This document shows, in pieces, positions 3,260 through 29,031 of a DNA stretch of 36,211 bases (positions are counted from its first letter, which is position 1; every line of letters starts with the position of its first letter). Source of the stretch: a virus; the IMG/VR virus record IMGVR_UViG_3300028569_000090, positions 1 to 36,211 of that record; one strand, 5' to 3'. A program made the translations under genes and the position numbers. The notes under the pieces are model-generated. The model ran no database searches. It saw only the letters and a list, made by a program, of their open reading frames with translations, and was not told the DNA's origin.

Positions 3260-5044
3260 TTAGAAGAATTCGGTAATGATGATGAGACCGGCGAACCCGT
3301 CACCACCAGCACGGGCTACGGCGGTGGAGACTAACGCACCGCCACCACCACACCCGTAGGTATCTGCGATGACCCCGGCGTTGTTCTCGGAAGAGGCGCG
3401 ACCACCACCGATGAAGGGAGCATCACCCTGCTTTGATCCAGGGAACGGGATCGTGCCGCTTGAACGTCCGGCAGAACCACCATGACTACCCCTGAAGTTG
3501 ATCAGACCGGTTGTGCCATAGCCAGCAATTCCACCGATTCCAACCACTGTGGAGGCAGTGCCAGCAGTGCCAGCAGCACCACCATTCCCTCCACCACCAA
3601 TGGCACGGGCAGTCGCTCCAGCTACCCCACCGAAGAAGGTCGAGTCGCCACCGGCGGTGCCAGGATTCGATCCTGCCGCACCACCCACACCGGCTGCTCC
3701 AACGGTATATTTGAAGACCTGGGTCATGTCGGTGATGAACACTTCGGAGTAGCCACCACCACCACCTGACATGCCGAACCCGACCTGGGAAGCGACACCG
3801 TTAGAACCACCACCACCAGCACCGGCACCCCAAACCCTGGCAAGCAAGGCACGGGCACCGGTCGATGGAGTGAACGTGGCGGCAGTGCCTGACGACAGAA
3901 AGAAGTCTGACCGACGCATAAATGGCGCACCGTAGAGCTTGGACCCTACGATGTTCCCGTCCAGCACCTTGTCGTTCGTGACCGAGTTGAGGGCAAGCTT
4001 GCCTGCCGTGATGTTGAGATCCGCCACCTTCGCAGTCGTGATGGCAAGGTCAGGCACCGATGCCGTCGTGATGTCGAGAACCACCCAGGAACCGGCAGAC
4101 ACTGCGCTGCCGATGTAGATGGATGCCATCCGGGGGGATGCGATGAGATCGACCTGCACGGCAAGCTGACCGATGAAGTCCGGCGTGGCTGCCGTCCTGG
4201 CTGCGTTGTTGGCAAAGACCTGGGCAGGACGATCGGCTGCAATCGTCTTGGATCTCGTGAGGGTAGCCTCTGCTACCTGGGCTGCCGTGATGGTCAGGGC
4301 TGCGATCTTGGCTGCCGTGACGCAGAGGTCATTCAGCTTGGCCGTCGTGATTGCCAGATCGGGGATGGATGCCGTCGTGATGTTGAACACAGACCAAGAT
4401 CCGGCAGTGGCCGCTGTTGCGACGTAGAGGCACGCTAGACGGGGGGATGTGATGAGGTCGAGTCTTGTCCCTACTTGGCCGACAAAGTCCGGCACAGAGG
4501 CACTCATGGCTGCGGAATCGGCAAACGTCTTGGTGGGACGGTCAACCAGGGAACCATCGACGTTCAAGAGTTCCACCAGTTGGTCGATGGTCAGCATCGA
4601 CGTGGCACCGTTGCCGGTCGTGCCGACGACAGCCGGGACCGTGCCGAGGGTCAGGGCATCCTGGGCTGCCGTGCCGGGTGCATAGCGGACGGCGATTGCC
4701 AGCAGGGCAGAGAGTTGCTGGGCGATGTAGGTCAGACGGTCCAGAGACTTCTCGATCTCCTCGGGCGGCATGGGTCCACCTTGCGTCAGGTCGAGGGTAT
4801 GGGTGTTGGGAATCGACCGGTAGCACAACAGCAGACCAGTCGAGGGACCGGCTGCCGTCATCGTGATGGATCCGGTCGAGCCATTGCCGCCGGTGACGGT
4901 GTAGTGGGTCGTGAGGGTCTTCAGCACACCGGCTGCCAGGACGACGAGGTCGGAAGCATCGAAGAACACGAACGGGATGCTGACCGTCTGCAACGGTGCG
5001 GTGAGTGTGACCTCGACCTGGGTGGTGGTTGATGATACACTCAT
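3260..5044 (-). CDS. Tail fibre / receptor-binding protein
   Basis: 594 residues. The N-terminal part (about 1-140) resembles the virion-attachment domain of T7-like fibres, including a stretch GGPMPPEEIEKSLDRL followed by a short helix ending in AIAVRYAPGT. The middle contains two copies of a repeat of about 95 residues (each with FxGQ, DLI-SPR, GSW and ITTAS-PDLAITTAK blocks), which form the shaft. The C-terminal 200 residues are very glycine-rich (GAGAGGGGSNG, GGGGGYSE, GGGGNGG), typical of receptor-binding tips made of glycine-rich loops. It is the first gene of the leftward group that continues through terminase. Just upstream, a 17-codon frame (5046-5096) ends one base before its ATG and may be a leader peptide or chance. 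Confidence 0.88.
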   Translation of the reverse strand: MSVSSTTTQVEVTLTAPLQTVSIPFVFFDASDLVVLAAGVLKTLTTHYTVTGGNGSTGSITMTAAGPSTGLLLCYRSIPNTHTLDLTQGGPMPPEEIEKSLDRLTYIAQQLSALLAIAVRYAPGTAAQDALTLGTVPAVVGTTGNGATSMLTIDQLVELLNVDGSLVDRPTKTFADSAAMSASVPDFVGQVGTRLDLITSPRLACLYVATAATAGSWSVFNITTASIPDLAITTAKLNDLCVTAAKIAALTITAAQVAEATLTRSKTIAADRPAQVFANNAARTAATPDFIGQLAVQVDLIASPRMASIYIGSAVSAGSWVVLDITTASVPDLAITTAKVADLNITAGKLALNSVTNDKVLDGNIVGSKLYGAPFMRRSDFFLSSGTAATFTPSTGARALLARVWGAGAGGGGSNGVASQVGFGMSGGGGGYSEVFITDMTQVFKYTVGAAGVGGAAGSNPGTAGGDSTFFGGVAGATARAIGGGGNGGAAGTAGTASTVVGIGGIAGYGTTGLINFRGSHGGSAGRSSGTIPFPGSKQGDAPFIGGGRASSENNAGVIADTYGCGGGGALVSTAVARAGGDGFAGLIIITEFF

Positions 5045-5150
5045 GTTAGTTCAGGGGAAGGTAGAAGTCGATGCCATCGAGTGTGAAGAACGGGGCCATG
5101 TCGCGCACATGTCCTACCGGTTGCGAAGATAGCAACCCCCAGTGTGTGTT

Positions 5151-5374
5151 TTTTTTTCCTCGCGTGTGAGTGTACTTCCTTTCCCTTTCCTTTCCTTTCC
5201 TTTCCTTACGTATCAACACAGTCAATAGCACTCCTATTGCCAGTGGCATATGGCACTCCTATCAAGTGTTTCTTTCCTCGCGTGTGAGTGTACTTCCCTT
5301 TCCTTTCCTTTCCTTCCGTATCTAGGCACCTAATAGCACTCCTATTGCCAGTGGCATATGGCACTCCCATCAAG
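5151..5374. repeat. Tandem copies of palindrome plus pyrimidine-tract element
   Basis: The 382-nt stretch 5045-5426 has no convincing gene. It holds two direct copies, about 110 bp each (roughly 5151-5264 and 5270-5374). Each has CCTCGCGTGTGAGTGTACTTCC, a run of CTTTC units, a CGTATC segment, then TAGCACTCCTATTGCCAG and TGGCATATGGCACTCC. The same composite, reading from the palindromic core out through a purine tract to CACTCGCACACG, recurs once inside the gene at 13762-14805. Candidate roles are a replication origin or a packaging signal near the small-terminase-like gene. The CTTTC runs are mirror repeats able to form unusual DNA structure. Confidence 0.75.
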
Positions 5375-5426: not shown

Positions 5427-5660
5427 ATGAAACCACACGCAGAGATCGAGATGAGTGACAGCGCACGAACCCTACTGGATGCCATGACTGCGTTCAGCAA
5501 ACCCACCCCGAAGGGGGGCAGGTCGCTCTGTGCCGACACAGTCGGGCTGCGGCAGATCTCAGGGATCCCACACCGGCTGATCTATCTGGTCCTGGGAGAG
5601 CTACGAGGCAGGGGTCTCGTCAGCTATTCGTCCCGTGGCTACTATCAGATCCTGGGGTGA
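5427..5660 (+). CDS. Small winged-helix DNA-binding protein
   Basis: 77 residues (or 69 from the second ATG at 5451). After a polar N-terminus, the region from about residue 30 reads as a winged helix: RSLCADTVGLRQISGIPHRL (recognition helix), a helix VLGELRGRGLVSY, then a short wing SSRGYYQIL. That resembles small MarR/GntR-like phage regulators. It is a lone plus-strand gene whose last 41 nt overlap the end of the convergent gene at 5620-6198. It lies directly next to the repeat element, so it could bind that element; this is inference. Confidence 0.65.
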   Translation: MKPHAEIEMSDSARTLLDAMTAFSKPTPKGGRSLCADTVGLRQISGIPHRLIYLVLGELRGRGLVSYSSRGYYQILG

Positions 5661-8540: not shown

Positions 8541-8601
8541 GTGTGCGACAACAATCGCACATTGTCGCACCTCGTCTACAAATTTGTGCGACTTTCTGTA
8601 A
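8541..8601 (-). promoter_or_regulatory. Operator/promoter element A, before 8511
   Basis: Reading leftward: TTACAG (8601-8596), 17 bp, TAGACG (8578-8573), with GTCGCACAA between them, a perfect ACAAATTTGT palindrome, and GGTGCGACAATGTGCGA after them. Almost 45 bp match element B at 10057-10107. TGCGAC/GTCGCA half-sites occur four times (8542-8550, 8553-8560, 8562-8570, 8583-8592). The spacing fits a repressible promoter, though TAGACG is a weak -10. Confidence 0.6.
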
Positions 8602-10056: not shown

Positions 10057-10107
10057 ATTGTCGCACAATGTCGCACCTCGTCTACAAATTTGTGCGACTT
10101 TTTGTAA
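10057..10107 (-). promoter_or_regulatory. Operator/promoter element B, before 10050
   Basis: Leftward: TTACAA (10107-10102), 17 bp, TAGACG (10084-10079), with the same ACAAATTTGT palindrome and TGCGAC half-sites as element A. Between the last TTGTGCGACAATG and the gene start there are only a few bases, so a bound regulator would also cover the translation start region. Confidence 0.6.
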
Positions 10108-11054: not shown

Positions 11055-11852
11055 ATGGACATCACCCACCTCACTCCCGCCATGGCGGCAGACCTCGCAC
11101 TCGCTCAAGGCGAGGTCGAGAATGCCATCAAGTCCTCGGACAATCCCTACTTCAACAGCACCTATGCGGACCTCGCCCAGGTGCTGGCAACGGCACGACC
11201 GGTCTACGCTCGGCGCGGTCTGTCCCTCCTCCAGGGCAGCAGCTTCGACGGCACCCTGGTGACCGTCACGTCCTCGCTCTGCCACAAGTCCGGTGGCTAC
11301 GTCACCTCTGCCATGTCCTGCAAACCGGGCAGCGTAGACAAGAAAGGGGAGTTCAAGGAACGACCGGACGCGCAAGGTGTCGGAGGTGCCACCACCTACC
11401 TTCGCCGGTATGCTGCGGCAGCCATGTATTGCATCGCGCAGGTCGATGACGACGGCAACGGCACCGGCGAGAACTACCGGCGGGACCGGGACGACGACCG
11501 GCGGGACGATCACCGGGACGACCGGCGGGACGATCACCGGGACGACCGGCGGGACCACCGGGAACCAGTGCGCCAGTCCCTCCCGACTGCTGGGTTCCTG
11601 CCCTCGCAGTCCCTTATTGATGCCGTCGAGAAGGCGGGTGCCTCGATCAATGCGTGGAACGACATCAATGGACGCTACGAGAAACGCTACACCGACCTCC
11701 AGGCGCAGGATGCGCGGGATGCCTGGGACTGGATCGTCGCCCAGGCCAAACGTGCCGGACTCACCCCTGACCCTGACGGTGCCGGGTTCATCAAGTCTGC
11801 CCTTGCCAAGCCGATGGAACCGTCTGCCCTGCCTGACTTCCTCCGTGCCTGA
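11055..11852 (+). CDS. erf: ERF-family single-strand annealing protein
   Basis: 265 residues. The N-terminal 145 residues follow the ERF pattern: LALAQGEVENAIKSSDNPYF-x-STYADLA, then LATARPVYARRGLSLLQG, then a region ending QGVGGATTYLRRYAAAAMYCIAQVDDDGN, which is the most conserved ERF block. ERF proteins pair complementary single strands during phage recombination. An Asp/Arg-rich linker follows (repeats of DDRRDDH, 24-bp DNA repeats at about 11480-11565), then a helical C-terminal domain ending in FLRA. The exonuclease at 12340 is its expected partner. Leader: CCAACCAAC and CTAAC, no Shine-Dalgarno sequence. Confidence 0.9.
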   Translation: MDITHLTPAMAADLALAQGEVENAIKSSDNPYFNSTYADLAQVLATARPVYARRGLSLLQGSSFDGTLVTVTSSLCHKSGGYVTSAMSCKPGSVDKKGEFKERPDAQGVGGATTYLRRYAAAAMYCIAQVDDDGNGTGENYRRDRDDDRRDDHRDDRRDDHRDDRRDHREPVRQSLPTAGFLPSQSLIDAVEKAGASINAWNDINGRYEKRYTDLQAQDARDAWDWIVAQAKRAGLTPDPDGAGFIKSALAKPMEPSALPDFLRA

Positions 11853-12153: not shown

Positions 12154-12353
12154 ACTACACCTACAACTCCCAGGACCACACGATCGAGGAAGTGGACACC
12201 GAAGAAGGGAACACCACGGCAGCCGTTCTCCTCGACTCCATCAGCCCTGACAAAGCCCTATCAATCGTCGCTTCCCTCAACAACGAGGCAGTCTATAAGT
12301 TCTACTCACCCAGTCGCTTCACTCTAATCTTTCCTGACCATGAATCTAACTGA
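12150..12353 (+). CDS. Hypothetical small acidic protein
   Basis: 67 residues, start GTG overlapping the previous stop, end overlapping the exonuclease start by 14 nt. An acidic N-terminal third is followed by an alpha/beta part (DKALSIVASLNNEAVYKFYSPSRFTLIFP). Not recognised. The double overlap supports translation. Confidence 0.55.
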   Translation: MNYTYNSQDHTIEEVDTEEGNTTAAVLLDSISPDKALSIVASLNNEAVYKFYSPSRFTLIFPDHESN

Positions 12354-13419
12354 ACAACCATCCTATCGTGCCTCATCCCTTGCGAGGATCGAGGCTTGCC
12401 CTGCCTCCGTCGAACTGTCCAAGCTTGCCCAGGCTGACACCGGCAGCGAGATCGCAGAGCGTGGAAACCGCATTCACGCAGCCATTGCTGCGACATTCAC
12501 TAGGGGGGCGGAGACACCGAACCTTGAGGATGGAGAGGCGGAGGTGGTCCAGACGATTCTAGACCGGATCTCTCGTGTCTATGCAGCTAAGCCCGACGAG
12601 ATCCTCGTCGAGCATACCCTGGAACTCCAGGGTCCAGGGTTCAAGCTGACAGGCACAGTCGATATGGTTATGTTTTTCGGCGACCATGCCGTGGTCATGG
12701 ATCACAAGACGGGATTCAAGCCTGTGGCACCGGCAGGCGAGAACATCCAACTCCTTACCTACACCCTGATGCTGGCGTCAAAGCGCCGGGACATTAAGTC
12801 ATTCACCCTCCTCATCAATCAACCGATGGTGAAGGGTGGTGGCACTGAGGCGAGGATCGAGATCTCAGACCTACGAGACGTGTGGCAGCGGCTCGAACGG
12901 CTTGGCAGGAGCGTGACGCCTGACGCCACGCCGACACCTTCGGAGTCTGCCTGCCAATACTGCCCCGCCCTGGAACTCTGCCCCGCTCACAAGGCGAACC
13001 TCGCGACGGTGTCCAAGCTGGACATCGTGCATAGCTGGGCAAGCCTGACGGTTGCCGACAAGGTGGTCCTCTGGAAGCAGCTTCGCCTCGCGACTGCCGT
13101 CATCGGCAAATACGAGACGCTGTTCCGCTCCGAGTTGGAGGCGAACCCTGACGCATTCCCAGGCGAGATCCGGCTGACGGCAGGGAAGAAGATGACCAAG
13201 ATCAAGAACCCGTCCGGTCTGTTCAAGGTGCTGGCTGCCCTCGGTCTGACTGGCGACCAGTTCGCCGCCTGCGTGGACATCAAAAAGACTGAGCTTGAGA
13301 AGGTAGTCAAACCACTGACCGGTCGCAAGGGCAAGGAGTTCGATGGGTGGTGGAAGTTTACCCTGGCACCATTCGTCGAAGAGTCCACCACCAGGGGTAG
13401 TCTCGAAACCGTCAAGTGA
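12340..13419 (+). CDS. Cas4/RecB-like PD-(D/E)XK exonuclease with Fe-S cluster
   Basis: 359 residues, DUF2800-like. The N-terminal SSLARIEACPASVEL supplies Cys20; RGNRIHAA gives the family His46; the nuclease core is GTVDMV (Asp108), then VVMDHKTG (Asp121, Lys123) and NIQLLTY (Gln137). A C-terminal cluster CQYCPALELC (Cys205, 208, 214) with Cys20 can hold a 4Fe-4S cluster, as in Cas4 and AddB. The enzyme would resect DNA ends to give ssDNA for the ERF protein. It is transcribed with it in one rightward operon. Confidence 0.85.
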   Translation: MNLTEQPSYRASSLARIEACPASVELSKLAQADTGSEIAERGNRIHAAIAATFTRGAETPNLEDGEAEVVQTILDRISRVYAAKPDEILVEHTLELQGPGFKLTGTVDMVMFFGDHAVVMDHKTGFKPVAPAGENIQLLTYTLMLASKRRDIKSFTLLINQPMVKGGGTEARIEISDLRDVWQRLERLGRSVTPDATPTPSESACQYCPALELCPAHKANLATVSKLDIVHSWASLTVADKVVLWKQLRLATAVIGKYETLFRSELEANPDAFPGEIRLTAGKKMTKIKNPSGLFKVLAALGLTGDQFAACVDIKKTELEKVVKPLTGRKGKEFDGWWKFTLAPFVEESTTRGSLETVK

Positions 13420-13761: not shown

Positions 13762-14805
13762 ATGCTCTACATCAACATCCCCATCTCGGTCCTGTCATCC
13801 TCCGAATACCGGCGGTGCAAACCCCTCAAGCGTGCCACTTGGCTTAACCTACTCGGCTACTGCTGCATCCAGGAGAATGGTGGCAGGATCGTAGGGGCGG
13901 CAGACTGGGATGACCGTGAGTGGCAGCAGATCGCTGCCGTCACCCTGGAGGAGGTGCGGATGGAGTCCACCCTCTGGACCTGGGATGGGGATGACGTGGT
14001 CGTGTGGGCATACCCAGCCGAGCAGGAACTGGTGATGCGTGCGAAGAGGGAGGGAGGGGTGAAGGGTGCCGCCAAACGGTGGGCAGCAAAGCCTGACGCT
14101 GAGACCCCGATCCCTCCCTCTGTGCCTGACCTATTCCCTTCCTCTGTGCCTGACCTATTCCCTCCCTCTTTGCCTGACCCTGTAGCACTCCCATTGCCAG
14201 TGGCAATAGGTAAAGAAAGGGAAGGAAAGGAAAGGGAAGTAAAGGAAAGGGAATCACTCGCACACGGGGACGGCGAAGCGATCCGCCGGATGGTCCGGTC
14301 GTATGGTGAAGCGTCCGGCAAGGCACCGTCCGGCGAGGCAGAGAAGGCAGCCATGCGTCTGATCCAGGCAGGAGAGGTCACCCTCGACGATCTCGTCGCC
14401 AAGGTGGACGCGATCTGCACTGCCTGCCTGGAGGTGCCCCTGCTCCGCAAAGGGTTCCTGCCACGACCCTACGATCTGTTCGCGGAGAACGGGTGGCTAG
14501 TCTCTCCCGAGGTTTACCGAGCGACCGGGATGCGGGCACCCAAGACGGTGGATCCCTCCCCAGGGACGGCACCGAAGCGTCAGGACTGGCAGATCCGCAA
14601 GGACATCGATGCCGTCACGCTGGAGGTCACCAAGATCCGCAGCAAGGATGCCAACTGGCGGCACTACCAGCACCAACCAGATCCAGAGTCCGATTTCACT
14701 GAGCCACGGAAGGCACTGAAGAAAGCTGCTGCCGAGGAGATCGCAGCCCTGACTAAGAGACTGGATGCTTTGAATGATGAGATAAAAACCGCACTACCCA
14801 ACTGA
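13762..14805 (+). CDS. Replication initiator-like protein (origin within gene)
   Basis: 347 residues. The N-terminal 110 residues look like a phage replisome-organiser winged helix (LSSSEYRRCKPLKRATWLNLLGYC, then VGAADWDDREWQQIAAVT). The middle is a low-complexity linker made of SVPDLFP repeats and Lys/Glu-rich GKEREGKEREVKERE. The C-terminal half has a helical domain with FLPRPYDLFAENGWLVSPE and ends in a charged helix. As in lambda O, the DNA coding for the linker carries iterons and a palindrome, which suggests that the protein binds its own gene. No helicase or polymerase gene is in the window, so host enzymes would be recruited. The assignment is by layout, not by clear homology. Confidence 0.55.
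   Translation: MLYINIPISVLSSSEYRRCKPLKRATWLNLLGYCCIQENGGRIVGAADWDDREWQQIAAVTLEEVRMESTLWTWDGDDVVVWAYPAEQELVMRAKREGGVKGAAKRWAAKPDAETPIPPSVPDLFPSSVPDLFPPSLPDPVALPLPVAIGKEREGKEREVKERESLAHGDGEAIRRMVRSYGEASGKAPSGEAEKAAMRLIQAGEVTLDDLVAKVDAICTACLEVPLLRKGFLPRPYDLFAENGWLVSPEVYRATGMRAPKTVDPSPGTAPKRQDWQIRKDIDAVTLEVTKIRSKDANWRHYQHQPDPESDFTEPRKALKKAAAEEIAALTKRLDALNDEIKTALPN
14117..14276 (+). other. Candidate replication origin inside initiator gene
   Basis: Three elements in a row. First, 2.7 direct repeats of 24 bp (14117-14188; core CCTCTGTGCCTGACCTATTC). Second, TAGCACTCC followed by the perfect 15-nt palindrome ATTGCCAGTGGCAAT (14193-14207). Third, a purine-only-like tract of GGAAA units (14211-14252) ending in CACTCGCACACG. 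The last two elements recur twice in the non-coding stretch at 5151-5374. Iterons plus a strand-biased tract within an initiator gene is the lambdoid origin design; function here is inferred. Confidence 0.5.
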
Positions 14806-16304: not shown

Positions 16305-16883
16305 ATGGCAAGACGTCCAATCAAAATCAGGATCGACCTCAAGAAGATCGATCAAAGCCTCTGCTACCGCTCCGACAAGACGGGTGCAGTCTACCTCGAT
16401 CTCGTCGCCTGGGAGGTGGATGACTCCCGCTACGGTGAGACCCACCGGGTCAGCCAGGACGAACCGAAAGACTACGACGGAGATCGTCTCCCGATCTGCG
16501 GCAACCTGACCGACCCCGAAAAAGTCCGCGATGAAGATCGCCGGGATGATCGCCGGGATGACCGGCGTGAACCCTCACGGGACCGAAACGACGATCGGCG
16601 TGGAGATCGCCGGGACGATCGCCGGGAACCCTCCCGTGATCCCCATGGCCGGGACCGGTCCACCTACCGTGGACAGGGTGGCACCGATGGCAATCCTCGG
16701 GACGATCGCCGGGGAGACCGCAGGGAGGATGACCGCCCGAACCCACGCCAGGAACGCAGTCCTCGTGAGGCTGCCCAGCCTGCCTACCAGCAGGAGCGGG
16801 AACCCCGTGAGACCTCCCGGGCCGGGAACTGGGGCAGGGAGAGACCGACCTCGGTTGACTCACAGGACGAAATCCCCTTCTGA
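16305..16883 (+). CDS. SSB-like protein with Asp/Arg repeats and DEIPF tail
   Basis: 192 residues from ATG 16305 (leader ACTAAC and CACTAAG). The N-terminal 80 residues (KIRIDLKKIDQSLCYRSDKT, GAVYLDLVAWEVDDSRYGETH, ICGNL) match a phage family I recall as small OB-fold-like ssDNA-binding or hypothetical proteins. The middle is a long run of DDRRDDRRE repeats. The end, DSQDEIPF, resembles the acidic DDDIPF tail by which bacterial SSB recruits partners. The gene would protect ssDNA for the ERF/exonuclease system and closes the rightward operon. The ssDNA-binding role is inferred. Confidence 0.65.
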   Translation: MARRPIKIRIDLKKIDQSLCYRSDKTGAVYLDLVAWEVDDSRYGETHRVSQDEPKDYDGDRLPICGNLTDPEKVRDEDRRDDRRDDRREPSRDRNDDRRGDRRDDRREPSRDPHGRDRSTYRGQGGTDGNPRDDRRGDRREDDRPNPRQERSPREAAQPAYQQEREPRETSRAGNWGRERPTSVDSQDEIPF

Positions 16884-19599: not shown

Positions 19600-22500
19600 T
19601 CAGTTGGAGAGACCGTCGATCTGGTCCTCGACCGACCGGGAAAGGATGCCGACAGCCCGCCACCGGCGAAGCTGCTCCTCTCTCGCGCCCGAGGGCAGCC
19701 GGTTCAACTCGGTTGCCATGGCGGCAGCCTTGGCCCCTGACGCAGTGCCCATGCCTCTGAAGGATTTCTCCAACTTGGTCAGGGTGGGCTTGGTGCCGGT
19801 GACTTCGATGTCCTCGGCGATCTCGGACAGGAGTCTGCTCTCGTCCGAGGTGATGCGCCCTGCCTTGAGCAGACCCTCGACCTTGGCCTGCGCCTTGGCC
19901 GGATCTTTGCGGATGTCCTCGGTCAGCTTGTCCCACCGTTTGTCTGTCTCTCTTCCCTTGGTGACTGCGGCAGGCTCAAAGAGCGCACGCTCGGTGTCAT
20001 CCCCCAGTCCGAAGGAACGGACGGTGCGGGCACCGATGTCGTAGATCAGGGTGCCGTTGCCGGACAGCCTGCCCGCAGCCTGTGCGGTGTGGTGCGCTGC
20101 CAGGGTTAGGTCGTGCAGGTTGAGACCGTTCTCCGTCATGTTCCAGAGATCACCCAGAGGGCGAGCAACGGACTCCAGGGATTGGAGGATCGGCAACTCT
20201 GCGCCGGACCCTGCGTTCCCCACGGCAGCGCCGGCGATCGAGGCGAGCCCTTGGCCGAACAAGAAGATCCCGTTGAGGGGACCGAGGATGGCACCGGCGA
20301 CGTAGTCCCCCCACTCGAAGTCTTCCTCGTCGTCGTCATTGAACGGGGCGCGGATCAGGTCCGAGGCAAGCTGGAAGATCAAGGGCAGGATGAGGTGACC
20401 CACCACCACCCTCTTGGCGAAGTCTTTCCCGGCACCGGCACGACCGGCACGCATGTCGGCGAACGCTTCCCAGGTCGATTGGAGATACTGCCGAGGCGAG
20501 GTCAGATACATCGTGAACACCCTGGCAATGCTGCCATCCATCTCGAAGGTCGAGAGGTCTTTGATGTTGCCAGCCTGCTGGTTGCGGTCGGTTGCCATCT
20601 CAAAGGCCAGGACGGCGAAGTCCTCGATCTCCGCCTCGGTGGCAGCCGGGTTGCGTTTGACGGCAACGTCCCTGGCGTGCATGTAGGCAGAGTAGCCGCC
20701 GATGATGACCGGGATGATGTCCCCCGCCCTGCCGGTCACCATGCCGAACTCGATCGACTGCATCAGACCGGATTTCGGTTTCTGCTTACCACCGACCATG
20801 CGGTCGATGTTGCCCGAGATGGTCGCCATGATGTCCCGGTCGTAGCCGTTCTGGAAGCGGGCTTGGGTGTAGGCGAGGGATGCCATCTTGTCCCAGTTGC
20901 CCTTGGGGTCAGTCCAGAACTTGGCTTGATACTTCGTGAATGCACGGAACGGCACGTCGAACAGGTAACCAGGGAACGCAGTCAACTGCTTGAAGAACAC
21001 CCCCCAGTTGTAGCTGAGCGAGGCGAGGACGTGCGCCCTGCGGATCGCATCGAGTTTACCGACCATCTTGGCACCACGGTTCCCTCCGTCCGCGAAGTAT
21101 TGCAAACGTTGCTGGATGGCATCGTTCAACTGCCTGGACGCATACTGGGTGATTCCCTTCTGGACGTCTTTGTGTCCTAGCACGGAGCGCAACTCTACCA
21201 TCGGCTCAGCCCACACCGTGAAGTGCTTCGCCTGGGCAACGTGCTGGGTGTAGAGCGAGAGTGCCCCGACCGACGTGTCCGGCTCAGCCTTGTGGTTGAT
21301 CCGTCCCGACAGGAACCCTGGCGAGAGTGCCCCTCCTGCGGGGATGTTTGAGTCGATCAGGTTGTCGATCTTCACCCGGTCGGAGACGAACCGGAGCGGA
21401 GAATAGTGCCGGACCTTCGGCAGGCTTGCACCGTAGACCCTGCGGTAGACCTGATTGATCTCGTCGTAGCCGGTCTCGTATCGCTCGGATAGGAAGTCTC
21501 GGATCGCTAGGGACTCGGGGGTCAGGTAGTCCTCGATCTGGTTCATGGTCTCCTGGGAATACCCGTGGAACTCCATGGTCTGACCGACACCCTCCTGCCT
21601 CCACATCATCGAGAGGTTGATCGCCTGATCCTGGGACAGCCTCATCTCCTCGTCGGTGACCATCGTCTCGTTGACGAATTCGATCTTGGACAGGTTCTGC
21701 TTCTTCTCCAGGGTCTTGATGCGGCCCTCAAGTCGTTTGATCTCCACCTTATCGGTTGCCGCTACCAGGGTAGTCCTAAGCCCGCTGAGAATGTTGTTGT
21801 GTTCGTCGAGTGCCAAGAGGATTCTCGACTCCTCGTCTACCGACAGATCTAAGCTGACTGCGGTCAGGGTGCCGTTCGCCAGTCCCCGTGCTTGCACAAG
21901 CGGGATGTTCTTAGTATAGCGGGCACCCTTGGGGATGTTCCGCCGCATGACACCGGTGTCGTCATGCTCCTGGGTTTGCTCGACGTGCTTGACTGCGACC
22001 TTGTTCTTCCACATGGGCTGCGCCTTGTCGAGGAGGGAGCCCCCCGTCCGGTCGATCCCGTAGATGTCTGCCAGGAATTCTGCTAACCGGTTGATCTCGT
22101 TGCCGACCTCGTTCGCCTCCCGGTGGGTGGCACGGTGGACGATCTTGGTGCCCCACTCACTGAGCGCACTGCCGAGGGTTCCGGTCGTCAGGTCAGCCCG
22201 GGATGCCGCATTGAGCAACCACTCCCAGGAGATCAGGTTAGCGTGGAACTGGGCGAACTTGGCACCCTCACTGCTCTGCTCGGCTGCCTTGCGTTTCGCG
22301 TCTGAGTCATTGAGGAGACCGGCACCGCCGGTGATCGTCTCCAGCATGGTGGCGCGGACGGCATCGATCCTGACCTTGCGATCAGCTTCGAGGGTCGTGC
22401 GAGTGAGTCTCCCCTCACTGATCATCGCCTCGATCTCCTCGGCAATCTCTGCCAGATCCTCCACGGACTTGGACGTCGGGGCACCGAACCGGACCACCCG

Positions 22501-25500
22501 AAGCAACTCCACGCTCTTTGCCATGGTGACGTCGTCGTCCTGACTAGCAGCGATTGTGGCATCAAGCCCCCTGATCTTCTCACCGGCTTGCTCTGCGTCC
22601 AGTTCTAACTCGACAGCAATCAGCTTCAACTCGTCGGTGACGACGTGCCCGACGTTCGAGATGTCGCGGTTCTTGTGGTCCTTCCTCGCGAGTCCCTTAT
22701 CCATCAGGTTGTCGATCTGATTGAGCAGGCTGCGCTTCGCCTGTGCATCGGTCAGAGCGTAGACACGCTCGATCCGGTCTTGCAGCTTGGTGAGACGCTC
22801 GAAAGGGGTGCTGGATTGGATGAGGGCACCGAACCCTCCCAGGCTGACCCGGGTCTCACGGGGCAACGTGGCGATGATCCTCTCAAGGGTGCGAGCGTGA
22901 TCGATCAGCCGCATCCTGGCTGCCAGGGTTTGCCGTGGCGTGTAGTTGAGATCGACCTTGAGGACGGTCTTCCGTTGAAGCTTCGCCAGATCCCCCTCGG
23001 TCTTCGCCTCGGTGATAGCCCTCTCGTGCATCGTCACTGCCTGGACGATCTCGGTCTCTTGGGCTGGGGTCAGGGTTGGCATGCTCAGCCGGACGGCGGC
23101 AGCGGCAGGCCCGCCCGCCTTGAGTTTCTGGGCATCGGCGATCTTGACCGAGATCACCTTCGGATTGAGCCCGCCGGACTTGATCAGGCTGCTACGGTTG
23201 CCACGGGTGGCAACGCTGTTGCGATCCTGAGCGACCTCACGGGAGATCTCTGCCAGGGCGGTGCGTGCAGCCCTGACACTCTCCAGGGATGCCTTGGTCT
23301 CGACCAGGGGACCACGTCCCACTGATAGGGTGGGACCGATCTCTCTGCCCTCCTCCTGCACCCACAGAGGCAGGAGGCCCACCTTCTGCGGGGCATACTC
23401 GGTGGATCCTCCGTCTGCCTTCTGGTTCTTCTCACCGTGAGGTCCGAAGTTGACCCAGGAGTTCTGCCCCCGAGTCTCTGCGGTCATGGCAGGAAGGGCA
23501 GCCGGGGAATACATGGCTGCGTGAGACTGCCACGCATTCTCCTCACCGGCGGCACGGAATCCGAACCCTTCCTTGATGTGTCCGAAGTAATCGTGGACGA
23601 CCCGGAAGACGTCGTTCGCGACCATCGTGTGACCGTTGATCACCTCGCCGGTCTCGACTAGCATCGGGTTCTTGGACACGTCCAGGGCGGCACTCTCAGG
23701 ACCACCGAACCCATCGGAGGTTGGGTAGAACCAGAGGTGACCGTTCTCGACCACATCGAGGATGGCATTGCGAGGGTTGCCGTAGGGATCCGGCTCACCG
23801 GAAGGGATCGGTTCGATCTTCAGACCGGTTGACTTGACGAATTCGTATTGCGCCAGGGTCTCGTCGATCATGGCCGAATAGGACGCAGCAACGGCAGGGT
23901 TGTCCGGTTCGTTCTCCATGTCGTCGAACGCGGCTGCGATCCGAATGGCACGGGACTTCTTGACGTTGACGTAGCGGGAGGGTGGCGTGTAGGTCAGGCC
24001 CCTGCTGGCAGTGTAGTCGATGGCAGCCTGACGGGCAGGCATGTGAGGACCGAACTCAACCTCGGTCTCCTCGGTGGCACCAACTCGCACCACCTTGGCA
24101 AAGACCGGCATGCCCTCCAGGGCGCGACTGCCAACCGACAGGGTGACGCCGACCCCGACCTTGATCTGGACGTCCTCACGGGCGGCGTCTTGGATCGGGA
24201 TTGCTTCATCGTAGCCAACCAGTGGGACGGTGCTGGCATCGTATTTGTCCGCAGGCCCGTGGTCTTCTGACCGGACCATGAAGACAACGTCAGGCTCCCC
24301 GAGGGTTTCGTAGGTCCACCCCTCCGGGGCATACTCACGATTAAACGCAACTCGGGCGACCGGACGGAACCCGTAGGGGGCATAGAGGTTGGGCAGGAAC
24401 CCGCCGATCTCGAATGCGTCGAGACGGTTGGCATACTGTGATGCCTCGGCCAGGATCGGCTGGATGTCAGCCTTGGACCCTGGTAGTTTATAGACGCTGA
24501 CGAGGTCACCATCGGAGGTGACCGCAACACCGGCGGTGTTGTCCGGTGAGGTGAATAGGGAGGTGGCGGGATCGAGATAGAACTCGATCGGCTTGATCGC
24601 AACAGCCTTGCCTTGCCGATGCGTGTCGCGGACACGCTGGAGGGCATCACGGAATGCTAGACCTCGGGCGTCTCGCTGCTCCCTTGTTTCTCCTCTTCCT
24701 GCAAAAGATCCTGAAGATAGACCCCCATTCCGAGTTGCGACTTGTGCCGTTCCATTTCGGCTGCCTTTTTCTCTGCCGTTTTCTTTGCCGACAGGGCTGC
24801 CAATGCTAGAGCGAAGTCCTTCATCTTGTCCGGCGGGATCTGGGCTGCCAACTCGTGAGGCTCGATTCCTCGCGTCGAGTGCTTGCTGTCCGAGTCCTCG
24901 TTGTTCTGCGAGTTTGAAGAATTCTTCGTCATAGGATGATTTGAGTTTGTCAGAGTTATTTTTGCCGGTCAGCTTAGCCCAGAGATCCTTCTCGGGATAC
25001 CACAAAATTGCCTGGATGTCAGCATTGGAGACCTCGTGCCCCATTGCGCGGAGTCTCTCCCTGACATCATTCACGATCGCAGAGATGATGCGCCGGTCAG
25101 CCCCCGCAGGGGAGTCCGTGACGGCAGGCAGCATGGTCTTGGAGGCGGCTGCCCACTCGGGCTTGAGCCCGCCCGCATCCTTTGCCCTGAGTAGGTCCGG
25201 GGGCATCTGTAGGGTGCGACCGGCTTTTGCATAAGCCTTGGACATGATCGCAATCTTCTCGCCCGCCTTCATCCGTGGGTTTGCCTTGAGAGGGGCGAAG
25301 AGAGACCGGCGACGGAACTGCTCTATCGTGGCAGCCAAGTCGAGGATGTTGAGAGACCCGTCACGCAGGGCGGCAACCTCACTCGGGGTGAGCATTGCTG
25401 CGGTGAATCGGTTATTGTCGAATTGTTCCTGCGTGACATCACCTGCTGCCAGGGATGCCTTCTCCTCCGGGGTAGCCTGCCTCGTCTTGCGAAACAGGTC

Positions 25501-28500
25501 ATAGATCTTACTCCACCTATCAAACAGCACCTTGGCATCAGCCTGCAAGGCAGACATATCAAGGTTCGCCATGTCCTCCTGGGACACCTCCGATGCCTTC
25601 TGTTTTCCGCTCTTTGAGAACACCTCGTGAACCTTAAGGCCGCGCAGTGATTCGGGCAGTGGCATGCCTGACTCGGCTAGTGAGGTGATTAGGCGGGCAG
25701 CCTGAACCCCGGTGGCTTGGTCCTTCAGGGAATCGCCAGTCCAGCGTCCCCAGGTCCGGCGCATCCAGAGATCAATGGTGACTGGGTTAAATTTACCCAT
25801 GAGGTTCTGCAAGAACCCTTGACCGATCTTGGGACCGAACAGGGCGGCACCCTGGACGATGTCGTCCTTCCTGCCTTCGATGCTGGTCTTCTTCCCGGTC
25901 AGCAGGAATGCGAGGTCTTCGAGTTCCCTGACCGAGTAGTCGTTCTCGATGATCTCGTAGAGTCTGTCGAACCCAACTTCCTCGATCAGTTTGTTGGCTA
26001 GTTCGAGGTTAGCTTTGATAGCCGGTCCCTTGGAACCGTATTTGCGGTTCGGATTGAACCTGCCCGTGGTCTTGTAGATGAAGAACTGCTCCTCGGCATA
26101 GACCGAGTTCTGCGCCACCGTCAGGTTCTGCGAGGTGATTGCCATCGCTAGATAGAAAGTCAGCTTTGCGTTCCTGGCCTTGCCGTCAAACACCTTGCCC
26201 GCCTTCGCATCGCTCCCCATCTCGGGGTGAAGCACGGTCGCGATCTCCATGGCAGACCTAACCGAAGTCGTATACCAATTTGCCGCGTTCTTGCCGGACT
26301 CCTTGAGTGCATAGAGAGCCTCCTGTAACGTGTTTGCGGTGATCTCCTCCAACTCCTCCGGGGTGATGTCGGTCGAGGTGATCTTCCTACCCCAATACGA
26401 AACTGCCGTGGCTTTGAGGTATGCGGCTGCCCCGATGTGGGAACGTCTCGCCTTCTCGGTCTCACCGTAGAGCAGCTTGACGGCAGAGGTAGGCATTGCT
26501 TCCTTGGTCTCAACGGAGAGGGTAGGACCGACCGTGGTCTTGGCCTCCGACCGGCGGAGGTTCTCCGCATAGGCAGTGATGACAGCTTCCGAGGTGTCGT
26601 CATTCTTGCGAAGGTAGGCATCAGCCTGATCCGGTGTGAGGGGCAGCATCCTGGCAAGTTGCCCAGCTTCATCGTTGGTCAGCCCAGCATAGGGGTTGAA
26701 CGTCGTGCCGGTCTGCAAACCGGAGGACTGTGCCAGGGCAGACTCGAACCGGGGAGCGACGGCACCACCGGCAATCGCCTTCTGCAATCCGATCGCCCGG
26801 TGCATGATCTCCTTGCTCCAGGCTGCGAGCATGGTGAGGAATTCACGCACGCTCTTGGGCATGCTCTTGGTCTCGACGGACTTGCCGACGAGGTAGTCGA
26901 GGGCAGCGTCAGAGAACCACTCTACCATCCCCTCGGGGGTGGCAAGGTGAGAGGACTCTGCACCGGCGAACTTCTCGACCGATGCCCGCCACCCTCGGAG
27001 GTCTTCCATCGTGACGTTGCCGTCCTCAAGCCCACGCTTCACCCACTCCTGGGACTTCTCCCTGACGAGGTGATCGGGCCGGGAACCCTGACGGAGTGCG
27101 ATGACACCCTTCTTGATGCCCTCCCGTGCCTCGGTCCAGTTGCTGCCGAAGACTTGGAACTCTGCCAGGAGGGACTCGGTGGTCCGCTCCGTGCCCTCGC
27201 GCATGGGTGCCGTGGCAGCGTCCAGGGCGGCGACCATGCCGTCGCTCGACGCAGCCATGGTGACATCGATCAGTTCTTTCTCGGTGCCGTAGATGGTCAC
27301 CTCACTGCGTGCGATTCCACGCCGGTCGTCCATCCGGTCGTAGTGATCCACGAGGTCGGAGAGTGCCATGGTGTTGAGGTCAGGCTCGACTACTACGTCC
27401 TTGGTCTGAGCCTGGAATGCCGCAACCACCTTACCAACTCCCGCCTTGGCATTGACACCCAGTGCCGTGCGGATCTCGGTGCGCTTCGCTGGGCTCAGAG
27501 TGCCCCACTGCTTACGGAATTCACCCTCGTCGCCGTCCCGTAGGGTGATGACGTCAGCGTCCTCCATGATGCCGGTCAGGACGTGCTTCCGTGGTGCGTC
27601 CTCATCGACATCGGCGTCCTTATCGGAGGAGACCTCGGACAGGTCCGGCTTGAGACCTTCGACCTGGGCAGCCTCGGCGATGTGACCATTGGACTCGGTC
27701 GCTGACTCCAGTAGGGCGCGGGCATTGCCCTGCCATTCACCCAGCATCTTGCGCCCCTCGTTGGCGACCACCTCGTCCGAGGCAGTACCAAGCATGCGCT
27801 CCATGTGACGGACGGCAGGGTGGGAACCGTCGAGGATCTTGGAGGCAGTCTCGATGGTGATGGTGTTCATCGCCTTCTGCGCCTTCATCAGGATGACCTT
27901 GTCAGAGCGTTCCATCCCGTGCATGGCTGCACCGGTGAGGAATGCCACGCCTGCTGTCCGGGTCATCTTCTCAGGATCGAGGAGGACACGGTCAGGATCG
28001 ACACCCCCAACCTTCTCGGAGAGATCGACGAGGAACTGGGAAGACAATTCCTGTCCCATCTCCCCTACCCCGCTGAAGACTGCCCGACCGAGACCGGTCT
28101 CGACATAACGCCCTACCGTTGCCGCAACCATCTTACCGACCGGCGTTGCCTTGAAGACCTTGCCGCCGACACCACCAAGACCGAGACCTTCGAGAGATCC
28201 GATGGCACCCTGGACGTAGGTCTGAATTCTGCGACCGTCAGCGTCAAGCCCTGCATCCTCGGCATTGTTGTAGCCACTGGCAGCCTGACCGGTCACCCCG
28301 AGGGCAATCGTTCCTGCACCTCCAGTGGTGGCACCGGCAGCGATGAACCCTAACGCAGAACCGAACCCTGACGGAAGATCACCGAACAGGAAGGTCTCTG
28401 CCAGGGCGGGGTTCTTGCGGAGGACTTCCTCGACCTTGGACTTGGTGCCTGCACCGAGGCGACGACCGACCTCTCTCGTGATGTAGCCATAGGCTGCCTC

Positions 28501-29031
28501 ATTGAACCGGTTTGTCTCTGCCCAGGATTCGGCATCCGTGAACATGGTCTTGAATGCGGTCAGGTAGTCACCCTCCAGCATTGCGGCACCAGTCTTCGAG
28601 GCTTGGTATCGTGCCAGGACGTTAGCCTGGGCGCTATCGAAGGTGGAGTAGTCCTTGCCGTTCTCCTCGTGAGGGACGGCAGACATCGTGCCCATGCCCT
28701 CAATGCCCGAGGCAAGCAGGTCAGAGATAGAGGTGACCAAGGAGGATGTCGCACTCTCGTAGCCAGGGACATCGTTATCGATGGCATTCATCCTCCACAT
28801 CTTGAAGAATTCCTTGGATCGTTCCTCGGTAGCGACCGGGTCCGCTCCGTTCTGGATCATGTATTGCGCTGCCTGACCAGCGTAAGAGGTCAGCAGTGCC
28901 ATGCGTGCTGCGGCATCACCCTTCTGGTAAGCATCTCCCCCACGGATGTCGTCCCATTCCAGGGGTGCCACCACTCGGGCGGCACTCTTGTTGACGTTTT
29001 CTCTCGGGTCAGTGTAGGTGGGCGGGGTCAT
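19600..29031 (-). CDS. Giant internal virion / polyvalent ejection protein (3143 aa)
   Basis: One frame of 3143 residues, far longer than T7 gp16. It starts in the stop of the upstream ejection protein (ATGA). Blocks seen: a Gly-rich hydrophobic segment (about 220-320, possibly membrane-active); a helical region around 900-1100 with NAANWYTTSVRSAMEI and GPKIGQGFLQNLMGKF followed by WMRRTWGRWTG; a domain at about 1500-1580 (VAVTSDGDLVSVYKLPG, GGFLPNLYAPYGFRPVAR) of GNAT-like look; and a domain at about 1750-1870 with VHDYFGH and ETRGQNSWVNFG. Long coiled coils follow, then hydrophobic helices near 2880-2950. I recall these blocks from large phage polyvalent proteins injected with DNA; enzymatic roles are unproven. 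An overprinted gene lies at 24657-24932. Confidence 0.85.
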   Translation of the reverse strand: MTPPTYTDPRENVNKSAARVVAPLEWDDIRGGDAYQKGDAAARMALLTSYAGQAAQYMIQNGADPVATEERSKEFFKMWRMNAIDNDVPGYESATSSLVTSISDLLASGIEGMGTMSAVPHEENGKDYSTFDSAQANVLARYQASKTGAAMLEGDYLTAFKTMFTDAESWAETNRFNEAAYGYITREVGRRLGAGTKSKVEEVLRKNPALAETFLFGDLPSGFGSALGFIAAGATTGGAGTIALGVTGQAASGYNNAEDAGLDADGRRIQTYVQGAIGSLEGLGLGGVGGKVFKATPVGKMVAATVGRYVETGLGRAVFSGVGEMGQELSSQFLVDLSEKVGGVDPDRVLLDPEKMTRTAGVAFLTGAAMHGMERSDKVILMKAQKAMNTITIETASKILDGSHPAVRHMERMLGTASDEVVANEGRKMLGEWQGNARALLESATESNGHIAEAAQVEGLKPDLSEVSSDKDADVDEDAPRKHVLTGIMEDADVITLRDGDEGEFRKQWGTLSPAKRTEIRTALGVNAKAGVGKVVAAFQAQTKDVVVEPDLNTMALSDLVDHYDRMDDRRGIARSEVTIYGTEKELIDVTMAASSDGMVAALDAATAPMREGTERTTESLLAEFQVFGSNWTEAREGIKKGVIALRQGSRPDHLVREKSQEWVKRGLEDGNVTMEDLRGWRASVEKFAGAESSHLATPEGMVEWFSDAALDYLVGKSVETKSMPKSVREFLTMLAAWSKEIMHRAIGLQKAIAGGAVAPRFESALAQSSGLQTGTTFNPYAGLTNDEAGQLARMLPLTPDQADAYLRKNDDTSEAVITAYAENLRRSEAKTTVGPTLSVETKEAMPTSAVKLLYGETEKARRSHIGAAAYLKATAVSYWGRKITSTDITPEELEEITANTLQEALYALKESGKNAANWYTTSVRSAMEIATVLHPEMGSDAKAGKVFDGKARNAKLTFYLAMAITSQNLTVAQNSVYAEEQFFIYKTTGRFNPNRKYGSKGPAIKANLELANKLIEEVGFDRLYEIIENDYSVRELEDLAFLLTGKKTSIEGRKDDIVQGAALFGPKIGQGFLQNLMGKFNPVTIDLWMRRTWGRWTGDSLKDQATGVQAARLITSLAESGMPLPESLRGLKVHEVFSKSGKQKASEVSQEDMANLDMSALQADAKVLFDRWSKIYDLFRKTRQATPEEKASLAAGDVTQEQFDNNRFTAAMLTPSEVAALRDGSLNILDLAATIEQFRRRSLFAPLKANPRMKAGEKIAIMSKAYAKAGRTLQMPPDLLRAKDAGGLKPEWAAASKTMLPAVTDSPAGADRRIISAIVNDVRERLRAMGHEVSNADIQAILWYPEKDLWAKLTGKNNSDKLKSSYDEEFFKLAEQRGLGQQALDARNRASRVGSPDPAGQDEGLRSSIGSPVGKENGREKGSRNGTAQVATRNGGLSSGSFAGRGETREQRDARGLAFRDALQRVRDTHRQGKAVAIKPIEFYLDPATSLFTSPDNTAGVAVTSDGDLVSVYKLPGSKADIQPILAEASQYANRLDAFEIGGFLPNLYAPYGFRPVARVAFNREYAPEGWTYETLGEPDVVFMVRSEDHGPADKYDASTVPLVGYDEAIPIQDAAREDVQIKVGVGVTLSVGSRALEGMPVFAKVVRVGATEETEVEFGPHMPARQAAIDYTASRGLTYTPPSRYVNVKKSRAIRIAAAFDDMENEPDNPAVAASYSAMIDETLAQYEFVKSTGLKIEPIPSGEPDPYGNPRNAILDVVENGHLWFYPTSDGFGGPESAALDVSKNPMLVETGEVINGHTMVANDVFRVVHDYFGHIKEGFGFRAAGEENAWQSHAAMYSPAALPAMTAETRGQNSWVNFGPHGEKNQKADGGSTEYAPQKVGLLPLWVQEEGREIGPTLSVGRGPLVETKASLESVRAARTALAEISREVAQDRNSVATRGNRSSLIKSGGLNPKVISVKIADAQKLKAGGPAAAAVRLSMPTLTPAQETEIVQAVTMHERAITEAKTEGDLAKLQRKTVLKVDLNYTPRQTLAARMRLIDHARTLERIIATLPRETRVSLGGFGALIQSSTPFERLTKLQDRIERVYALTDAQAKRSLLNQIDNLMDKGLARKDHKNRDISNVGHVVTDELKLIAVELELDAEQAGEKIRGLDATIAASQDDDVTMAKSVELLRVVRFGAPTSKSVEDLAEIAEEIEAMISEGRLTRTTLEADRKVRIDAVRATMLETITGGAGLLNDSDAKRKAAEQSSEGAKFAQFHANLISWEWLLNAASRADLTTGTLGSALSEWGTKIVHRATHREANEVGNEINRLAEFLADIYGIDRTGGSLLDKAQPMWKNKVAVKHVEQTQEHDDTGVMRRNIPKGARYTKNIPLVQARGLANGTLTAVSLDLSVDEESRILLALDEHNNILSGLRTTLVAATDKVEIKRLEGRIKTLEKKQNLSKIEFVNETMVTDEEMRLSQDQAINLSMMWRQEGVGQTMEFHGYSQETMNQIEDYLTPESLAIRDFLSERYETGYDEINQVYRRVYGASLPKVRHYSPLRFVSDRVKIDNLIDSNIPAGGALSPGFLSGRINHKAEPDTSVGALSLYTQHVAQAKHFTVWAEPMVELRSVLGHKDVQKGITQYASRQLNDAIQQRLQYFADGGNRGAKMVGKLDAIRRAHVLASLSYNWGVFFKQLTAFPGYLFDVPFRAFTKYQAKFWTDPKGNWDKMASLAYTQARFQNGYDRDIMATISGNIDRMVGGKQKPKSGLMQSIEFGMVTGRAGDIIPVIIGGYSAYMHARDVAVKRNPAATEAEIEDFAVLAFEMATDRNQQAGNIKDLSTFEMDGSIARVFTMYLTSPRQYLQSTWEAFADMRAGRAGAGKDFAKRVVVGHLILPLIFQLASDLIRAPFNDDDEEDFEWGDYVAGAILGPLNGIFLFGQGLASIAGAAVGNAGSGAELPILQSLESVARPLGDLWNMTENGLNLHDLTLAAHHTAQAAGRLSGNGTLIYDIGARTVRSFGLGDDTERALFEPAAVTKGRETDKRWDKLTEDIRKDPAKAQAKVEGLLKAGRITSDESRLLSEIAEDIEVTGTKPTLTKLEKSFRGMGTASGAKAAAMATELNRLPSGAREEQLRRWRAVGILSRSVEDQIDGLSN
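24657..24932 (-). CDS. Overprinted 91-residue protein inside the giant gene
   Basis: A same-strand frame, shifted relative to the giant gene (its residues about 1367-1458), encodes 91 residues: a Ser/Asn-rich start, PHELAAQIPPDKMKDFALAL, a Lys/Ala/Glu coiled coil (AALSAKKTAEKKAAEMERHK), then GMGVYLQDLLQEEE. It looks like a natural small helical protein. Its codons keep the G/C-rich third positions normal here. In the same stretch the giant frame becomes Gly/Arg/Ser-rich and uses unusual codons such as CGA, GGA, CAA and AGA. This is the signature of two-frame coding. Family unknown. Confidence 0.6.
   Translation of the reverse strand: MTKNSSNSQNNEDSDSKHSTRGIEPHELAAQIPPDKMKDFALALAALSAKKTAEKKAAEMERHKSQLGMGVYLQDLLQEEEKQGSSETPEV

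Follow-up and report, generated by a model that had tools for sequence, protein, structure and literature searches.

Why does a coding stretch of a putative replication initiator gene share its sequence elements with a non-coding region of the same viral genome? This question was raised by a 36,211-bp virus record (the window), which carries an integrase, an Erf recombinase, an exonuclease, an endolysin and tail genes. To our knowledge, an origin in the initiator gene with a distant non-coding copy has hitherto been described mainly in the Bacillus phage SPP1. Our analysis suggested that the window most likely represents a virus of Verrucomicrobia-type bacteria whose replication would start within the gene that encodes its own start protein; a second, non-coding copy of this site lies 9 kb away.

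The gene and the elements of the gene-borne site are listed below.

13762..14805, plus strand: initiator gene, 347 aa; 71% identical in G001, the sole close relative found; its N-terminal domain is common to Verrucomicrobia/Akkermansia phages and prophages
14111..14182, plus strand: three 24-bp direct repeats TCCCTCCCTCTGTGCCTGACCTAT, iteron-like and coding, from the repeat listing (lag 24, p 0.02, the smallest value that the synonymous shuffle could give)
14183..14210, plus strand: core TAGCACTCCCATTGCCAGTGGCAATAGG with near-palindrome ATTGCCAGTGGCAAT, from repeat and motif searches
14212..14253, plus strand: coding purine tract of GGAAN/GAAAG repeats KEREGKEREVKERE, a candidate unwinding element whose position is conserved in relatives
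14254..14267, plus strand: TCACTCGCACACGG, the right edge of the shared composite, from the alignment of the copies

The original prediction placed copies of the core at 5226, 5334 and 14183 with at most one change, and the repeat search agreed. The 23-mer TAGCACTCCTATTGCCAGTGGCA matches perfectly at 5226-5248 and 5334-5356, whereas the copy at 14183-14205 carries a single change. The shorter ATTGCCAGTGGCA occurs exactly three times in the window, and allowing up to 2 mismatches gave 5 matches versus 0.83 expected. Alignment of the three copies, which had been proposed as a check, gave a gapped composite of about 80 bp, with the 5.2-kb copies read leftward and the 14.2-kb copy rightward; it was also detected as inverted repeats. 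All copies share the order AATAGG, GTAA(A/G)GAAAGG, GGAAA tract and CACTC-n-CAC(A/G)CG. The predicted run from AATAGG through the GGAAA tract to CACTC-x-CACACG thus aligned, but not uniformly: the gap between AATAGG and the purine tract is about 24-26 bases longer in the non-coding copies, and the final motif is CACTC-A-CACGCG there and CACTC-G-CACACGG in the gene. The cluster, predicted to begin at 14117, is present in the gene, but the three 24-bp repeats that precede the composite begin slightly earlier (first base 14111). In the whole genome, the best match of the gene linker outside its own gene was the 5.2-kb intergenic region, with a score of 55. None of 240 genome-wide dinucleotide shuffles reached this score (maximum 38).

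The 5.2-kb site and its neighbours are arranged as follows.

3260..5044, minus strand: tail-fibre-like gene, transcribed away from the non-coding site; one of the flanks that is syntenic in G001
5149..5174, minus strand: unit 1, CACTCACACGCGAGG and then a minus-strand A run; a low-stability stretch
5175..5215, minus strand: unit 1, ATACGTAA and minus-strand GGAAA repeats
5225..5262, minus strand: unit 1, overlapping near-palindromes ATAGCACTCCTAT / ATTGCCAGTGGCAT / ATGGCACTCCTAT at a spacing of 12-13 bp
5277..5323, minus strand: unit 2, GGAAA repeats and CACTCACACGCG
5333..5370, minus strand: unit 2, near-palindromes as in unit 1
5427..5660, plus strand: gene of a 77-aa protein with a weak, sub-threshold match to TrmB (winged-helix)

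Both units lie between the leftward tail-fibre gene (start codon 5044) and the rightward 77-aa gene (from 5427), and the site stands at the head of the leftward late genes. The units are in tandem, 108-118 bp apart. Near-palindromes are more numerous here than in the gene copy, and their enrichment is statistically suggestive, giving modest support. Short minus-strand frames span the 5.2-kb copies. These frames are not conserved in G001, so a coding explanation was ruled out and the label of non-coding stands, as does the predicted arrangement of one coding, rightward copy and two tandem, leftward, non-coding ones. A crude consensus scan found no sigma70-like promoter at the site, and the region had no Rfam match. 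The stretch of 5-6.3 kb had no match in the phage collection, and no viral contig searched contained the core pattern of the 23-mer, GCACTCCNATTGCCAGTGGCA.

G001 (38.7 kb) can be aligned with the window along most of its length, at about 65-86% identity over the aligned blocks. It carries the pair of gene and intergenic site at syntenic places and in the same relative orientation, and the 77-aa protein is conserved beside its non-coding site (57% identical). Overlapping ATRG-n-CYAT near-palindromes, 12-13 bp apart, occur in the intergenic regions of both genomes. The bases differ: G001 has GGAAC/CGTAA where the window has GGAAA, and this version is found both in its gene linker (GTAAAGAAACGGAACGGAACGAAACGGAA) and, on the opposite strand, in the syntenic intergenic region (GTAAAGAAACGTAACGTAACGGAACGAAA). 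The best match of the G001 gene linker outside its own gene was this intergenic site (score 38; runner-up 27), and 1 of 240 shuffles reached 38, with matches counted anywhere in the genome rather than at the syntenic place only. In the reverse direction, the intergenic site matched its own neighbouring block best (44) and then the gene (38). Scores between the gene of one genome and the non-coding site of the other were lower: 23 for the window gene linker against the G001 intergenic region, equal to the shuffle maximum of 23, and 32 for unit 1 of the window against the G001 gene. The two sites are therefore more alike within a genome than between genomes, since the G001 pair shares its own GGAAC/CGTAA version. 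Pairing and layout were kept between the window and G001 while the bases changed.

To define how widely a second site occurs, 38 related records were scanned for the patterns, and 25 records, mostly of near-complete length, were each compared with themselves. A second site with the same elements in the non-coding late region, as in SPP1, was found in the window and G001, and no clear one in the 23 other, mostly near-complete, relatives. In G023 there was a weak match (score 33) at the end of the record. Searches with the 77-aa neighbour and with a 2-member initiator profile returned G001 only, and the two closest proteins had no match in a genome-contig search. The lineage evidence for paired sites thus comes from two genomes.

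The 347-aa protein is predicted to have a winged-helix N-terminal domain (about residues 8-110), a disordered linker (118-166), which is the candidate origin, and a helical C-terminal part. The disordered linker coincides exactly with the repeats. The structure model is confident for the N-terminal domain, which ends in helix-helix-strand-strand, the winged-helix order; a poor single-sequence model of this domain was set aside. Residues 9-85 matched the winged helix of NtcA weakly (Z about 5.5, a level where fold similarity is common), and Foldseek found no significant match for the whole model. The window protein itself had no significant Pfam or PHROGs match, and the family profile had no sequence match among solved structures. 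Besides the winged-helix-like N-terminal model, the support for an initiator comes from matches that belong to its relatives. None of the genes in the window was recognisable as a helicase gene.

When viral contigs were searched with a profile built on the N-terminal domain, 193 relatives were recovered (80 kept), and a search of genomes gave 8. Of 388 genomes sampled from the phylum to which a Verrucomicrobiaceae MAG belongs, 10 carry the domain at E 1e-15 or better. About 100 additional proteins related to the 347-aa protein were collected, and the 54 left after dereplication formed the set analysed. The relatives come largely from Verrucomicrobia/Akkermansia phages and prophages. Their PHROGs matches included replication initiation (9 of 43), O-like (3) and primosomal (3) families, and a DnaB-type helicase was the following gene in 6 of the 7 relatives picked for a large following gene. 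The members of this initiator group that were tested matched no Pfam or NCBIfam family. In the family, the linkers (about codons 125-160) hold a purine tract, commonly GGAAAGGAAAGGAA (period 5) or a period-6 version. Just upstream of the tract there are repeats with a length of 11/12 bp or a multiple of it, such as CCAAGCAnAAC in several copies or AAGCnnnGCTT palindromes. The search of related phages for the composite, which the original prediction had called for, thus recovered the pair in G001 and iterons with a tract in most linkers, but no clear second site elsewhere. In two records, L054 (at 9048) and G019 (at 14364; the record of L059), near-identical second GGAAN-like arrays lie about 1 kb upstream of the initiator gene (2 mismatches in L054).

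The linker DNA is conserved beyond the need of the protein. In the 54 dereplicated relatives, the purine/GGAAN tract went beyond synonymous shuffles (p<0.05) in 83%, and repeat phasing did so (p<0.05) in 72%; these tests count the relatives as independent, which they are not fully, and the effect sizes matter more than the exponents. The repeats preceding the tract keep an 11/12-bp phase, with a lag-12 identity of 0.43 versus 0.26 in control coding sequence, and in some relatives the period is 11 bp, not a multiple of the codon. With the linker picked by protein composition alone, the ratio of AGR to CGN codons for Arg was 79:21 inside and 192:899 outside, that of GGR to GGY for Gly 143:11 and 491:616, and that of GAA to GAG for Glu 186:39 and 607:657. 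These results show that codon choice, and not just amino-acid choice, makes the tract and repeats of the linker.

This layout resembles that of lambda O, whose gene likewise carries iterons in the stretch that joins the N-terminal DNA-binding domain to the C-terminal part, with a purine-rich tract after them. In the same shuffle test, none of 200 synonymous shuffles was as good as the lambda iterons. They are followed by AAAAGAAAAAAGAAAAGA at codon 150, where the family has its tract, although the lambda purine segment alone was not significant (p 0.23). The likeness is one of layout: the family profile had no detectable homology to lambda O (hhalign probability 0.1%), and lambda has one origin with an AT-rich tract, whereas the window has a GGAAN-repeat tract and 11/12-bp phased iterons. 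As in a lambda-type origin, a strand-asymmetric or easily melted tract adjoins the repeats, both in the window and in most of its relatives. The purine tract of the window is unusually unstable (top 0.5%), but the stability of the G001 gene tract is not unusual, and so the name of unwinding element rests on position and periodicity. The GC skew, another check proposed earlier, had no clean switch across the window. The comparisons of iterons and tract, synonymous constraint, PHROGs and DnaB context and lambda layout strongly support the predicted origin in the initiator gene, and the gene-borne site is very probably of the lambda type.

For the pair of sites, the precedent is SPP1. Its oriL lies within gene 38 and its oriR between genes of the late region, and gp38 binds both (PMC6316719; PMC3485210). 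Replication forks are thought to stall at oriR, which leads to recombination-dependent concatemer synthesis (PMC6316719; PMC3485210). By its published description, SPP1 is like the window in having one origin in the initiator gene and the other between late genes (about 12-13 kb apart versus 9 kb in the window), and a recombinase and exonuclease available for the theta-to-sigma switch. It differs in being a lytic phage of Bacillus, whereas the window phage has an integrase, and in having AT-rich unwinding elements instead of GGAAN purine repeats. The Akkermansia phages Chambord, Chantilly and DTMo-2021a share the homologous N-terminal domain and purine linker with the window, but identity (about 44%) is limited to the N-terminal 100 residues, and they have no second site. 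In Chambord and Chantilly the initiator-type gene lies just upstream of a DnaB-like helicase.

Two genes just upstream of the initiator gene bear on a role in recombination.

11055..11852, plus strand: Erf-type single-strand annealing recombinase
12340..13419, plus strand: PD-(D/E)XK exonuclease (DUF2800)

Their presence suits a fork-barrier or recombination role for the 5.2-kb site, without proving it. We propose that the winged-helix initiator would bind the phased iterons within its own gene, and that the GGAAN purine tract beside them would open and pass to a DnaB-type helicase. The 5.2-kb version, which stands where the leftward late operon begins, would be bound by the same initiator. 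Like oriR of SPP1, it could then serve late as a second origin, or form a fork barrier that aids a recombination-driven switch to concatemers, which the neighbouring Erf recombinase and exonuclease would synthesize. The composites, their syntenic recurrence in G001, the greater similarity within than between genomes, and the family iterons and tract under DNA-level constraint are established at the level of sequence. At 5.2 kb, the two units probably form a second site for the initiator, of the oriR type and confined to the lineage of the window and G001. The joint reading, with the linker as a lambda-type origin and the 5.2-kb pair as its second, non-coding version (late origin or fork barrier), appears reasonably likely to us.

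The 5.2-kb copies could instead serve a single, gene-borne origin as initiator-binding operators or titration sites, which would control the timing of the late leftward operon or of the initiator level. The position at the head of the late genes, the excess of near-palindromes over the gene copy, and the 23 relatives that manage without a second site all agree with this. It is nonetheless unlikely, as a mere operator would not need the purine tract that is retained alongside the binding motifs, and the crude scan found no promoter. The copies might also be what remains, without function, of a duplicated segment of the initiator gene, since the leftmost copy of the window reads in frame MPLAIGVLLTVLIRKERKGKERERK..., resembling the linker. 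A relic would not be expected to track the lineage-specific GGAAC version of the gene. G001 keeps the layout at the syntenic place despite differing bases, and its short frames are unrelated, which makes this explanation quite improbable.

Terminase sites usually lie within or beside the small terminase gene. The 5.2-kb region starts the late operon a few kb from a terminase gene, and both sites would give purine RNA of the same sense, so a packaging (pac/cos) or RNA-level leader element sharing motifs with the linker by chance was considered. With such a usual place for terminase sites, no Rfam match and motif sharing specific to the initiator gene, it has very little probability, and nothing found supported the packaging site of the original prediction. 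K/E/R/G-rich linkers do recur across the family, and the tract and repeats might simply reflect a favoured low-complexity protein linker. The synonymous-codon tests, the repeat periods of 5 and 11 bases and the non-coding copies in two genomes leave this hardly credible. A second origin near 5.2 kb, syntenic in G001 and with SPP1 as precedent, is the best reading of that half of the prediction.

What appears most unusual is that a coding linker and a non-coding site have changed together, a claim with two genomes behind it. Tentatively, and with some doubt, we suggest that the two evolve jointly, either through gene conversion or because both adapt to an initiator that itself changes, that a regulatory DNA site would in this way shape part of a protein sequence, and that an SPP1-like origin duplication arose independently in this lineage. 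Our results indicate a likely replication origin for a broad group of Verrucomicrobia/Akkermansia phages, account for the odd K/E/R/G-rich linkers of these phages as origin DNA embedded in the gene, and offer a second natural case, beside SPP1, for asking why some phages keep two initiator sites. The sites are short and lineage-specific, which makes direct binding and plasmid-replication tests simple.

Other repeats were observed in the window. Positions 8555-8601 and 10061-10107 hold a 47-bp repeat (96% identical) with GTCGCAC/GTGCGAC elements; it also occurs in G001 and is operator-like, possibly for a lysogeny repressor. The early region has 12/24-bp tandem repeats at 11493-11561 and 16536-16627 (GACGACCGGCGG, GATCGCCGGGAT), which are mutually similar. 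The minus strand contains a 3143-residue open frame (19600-29031), long for a 36-kb phage, whose PHROGs matches are families of unknown function. The tail-fibre gene includes a 160-bp direct repeat (3993-4152 and 4302-4461, 72%), and G001 has a comparable internal repeat.
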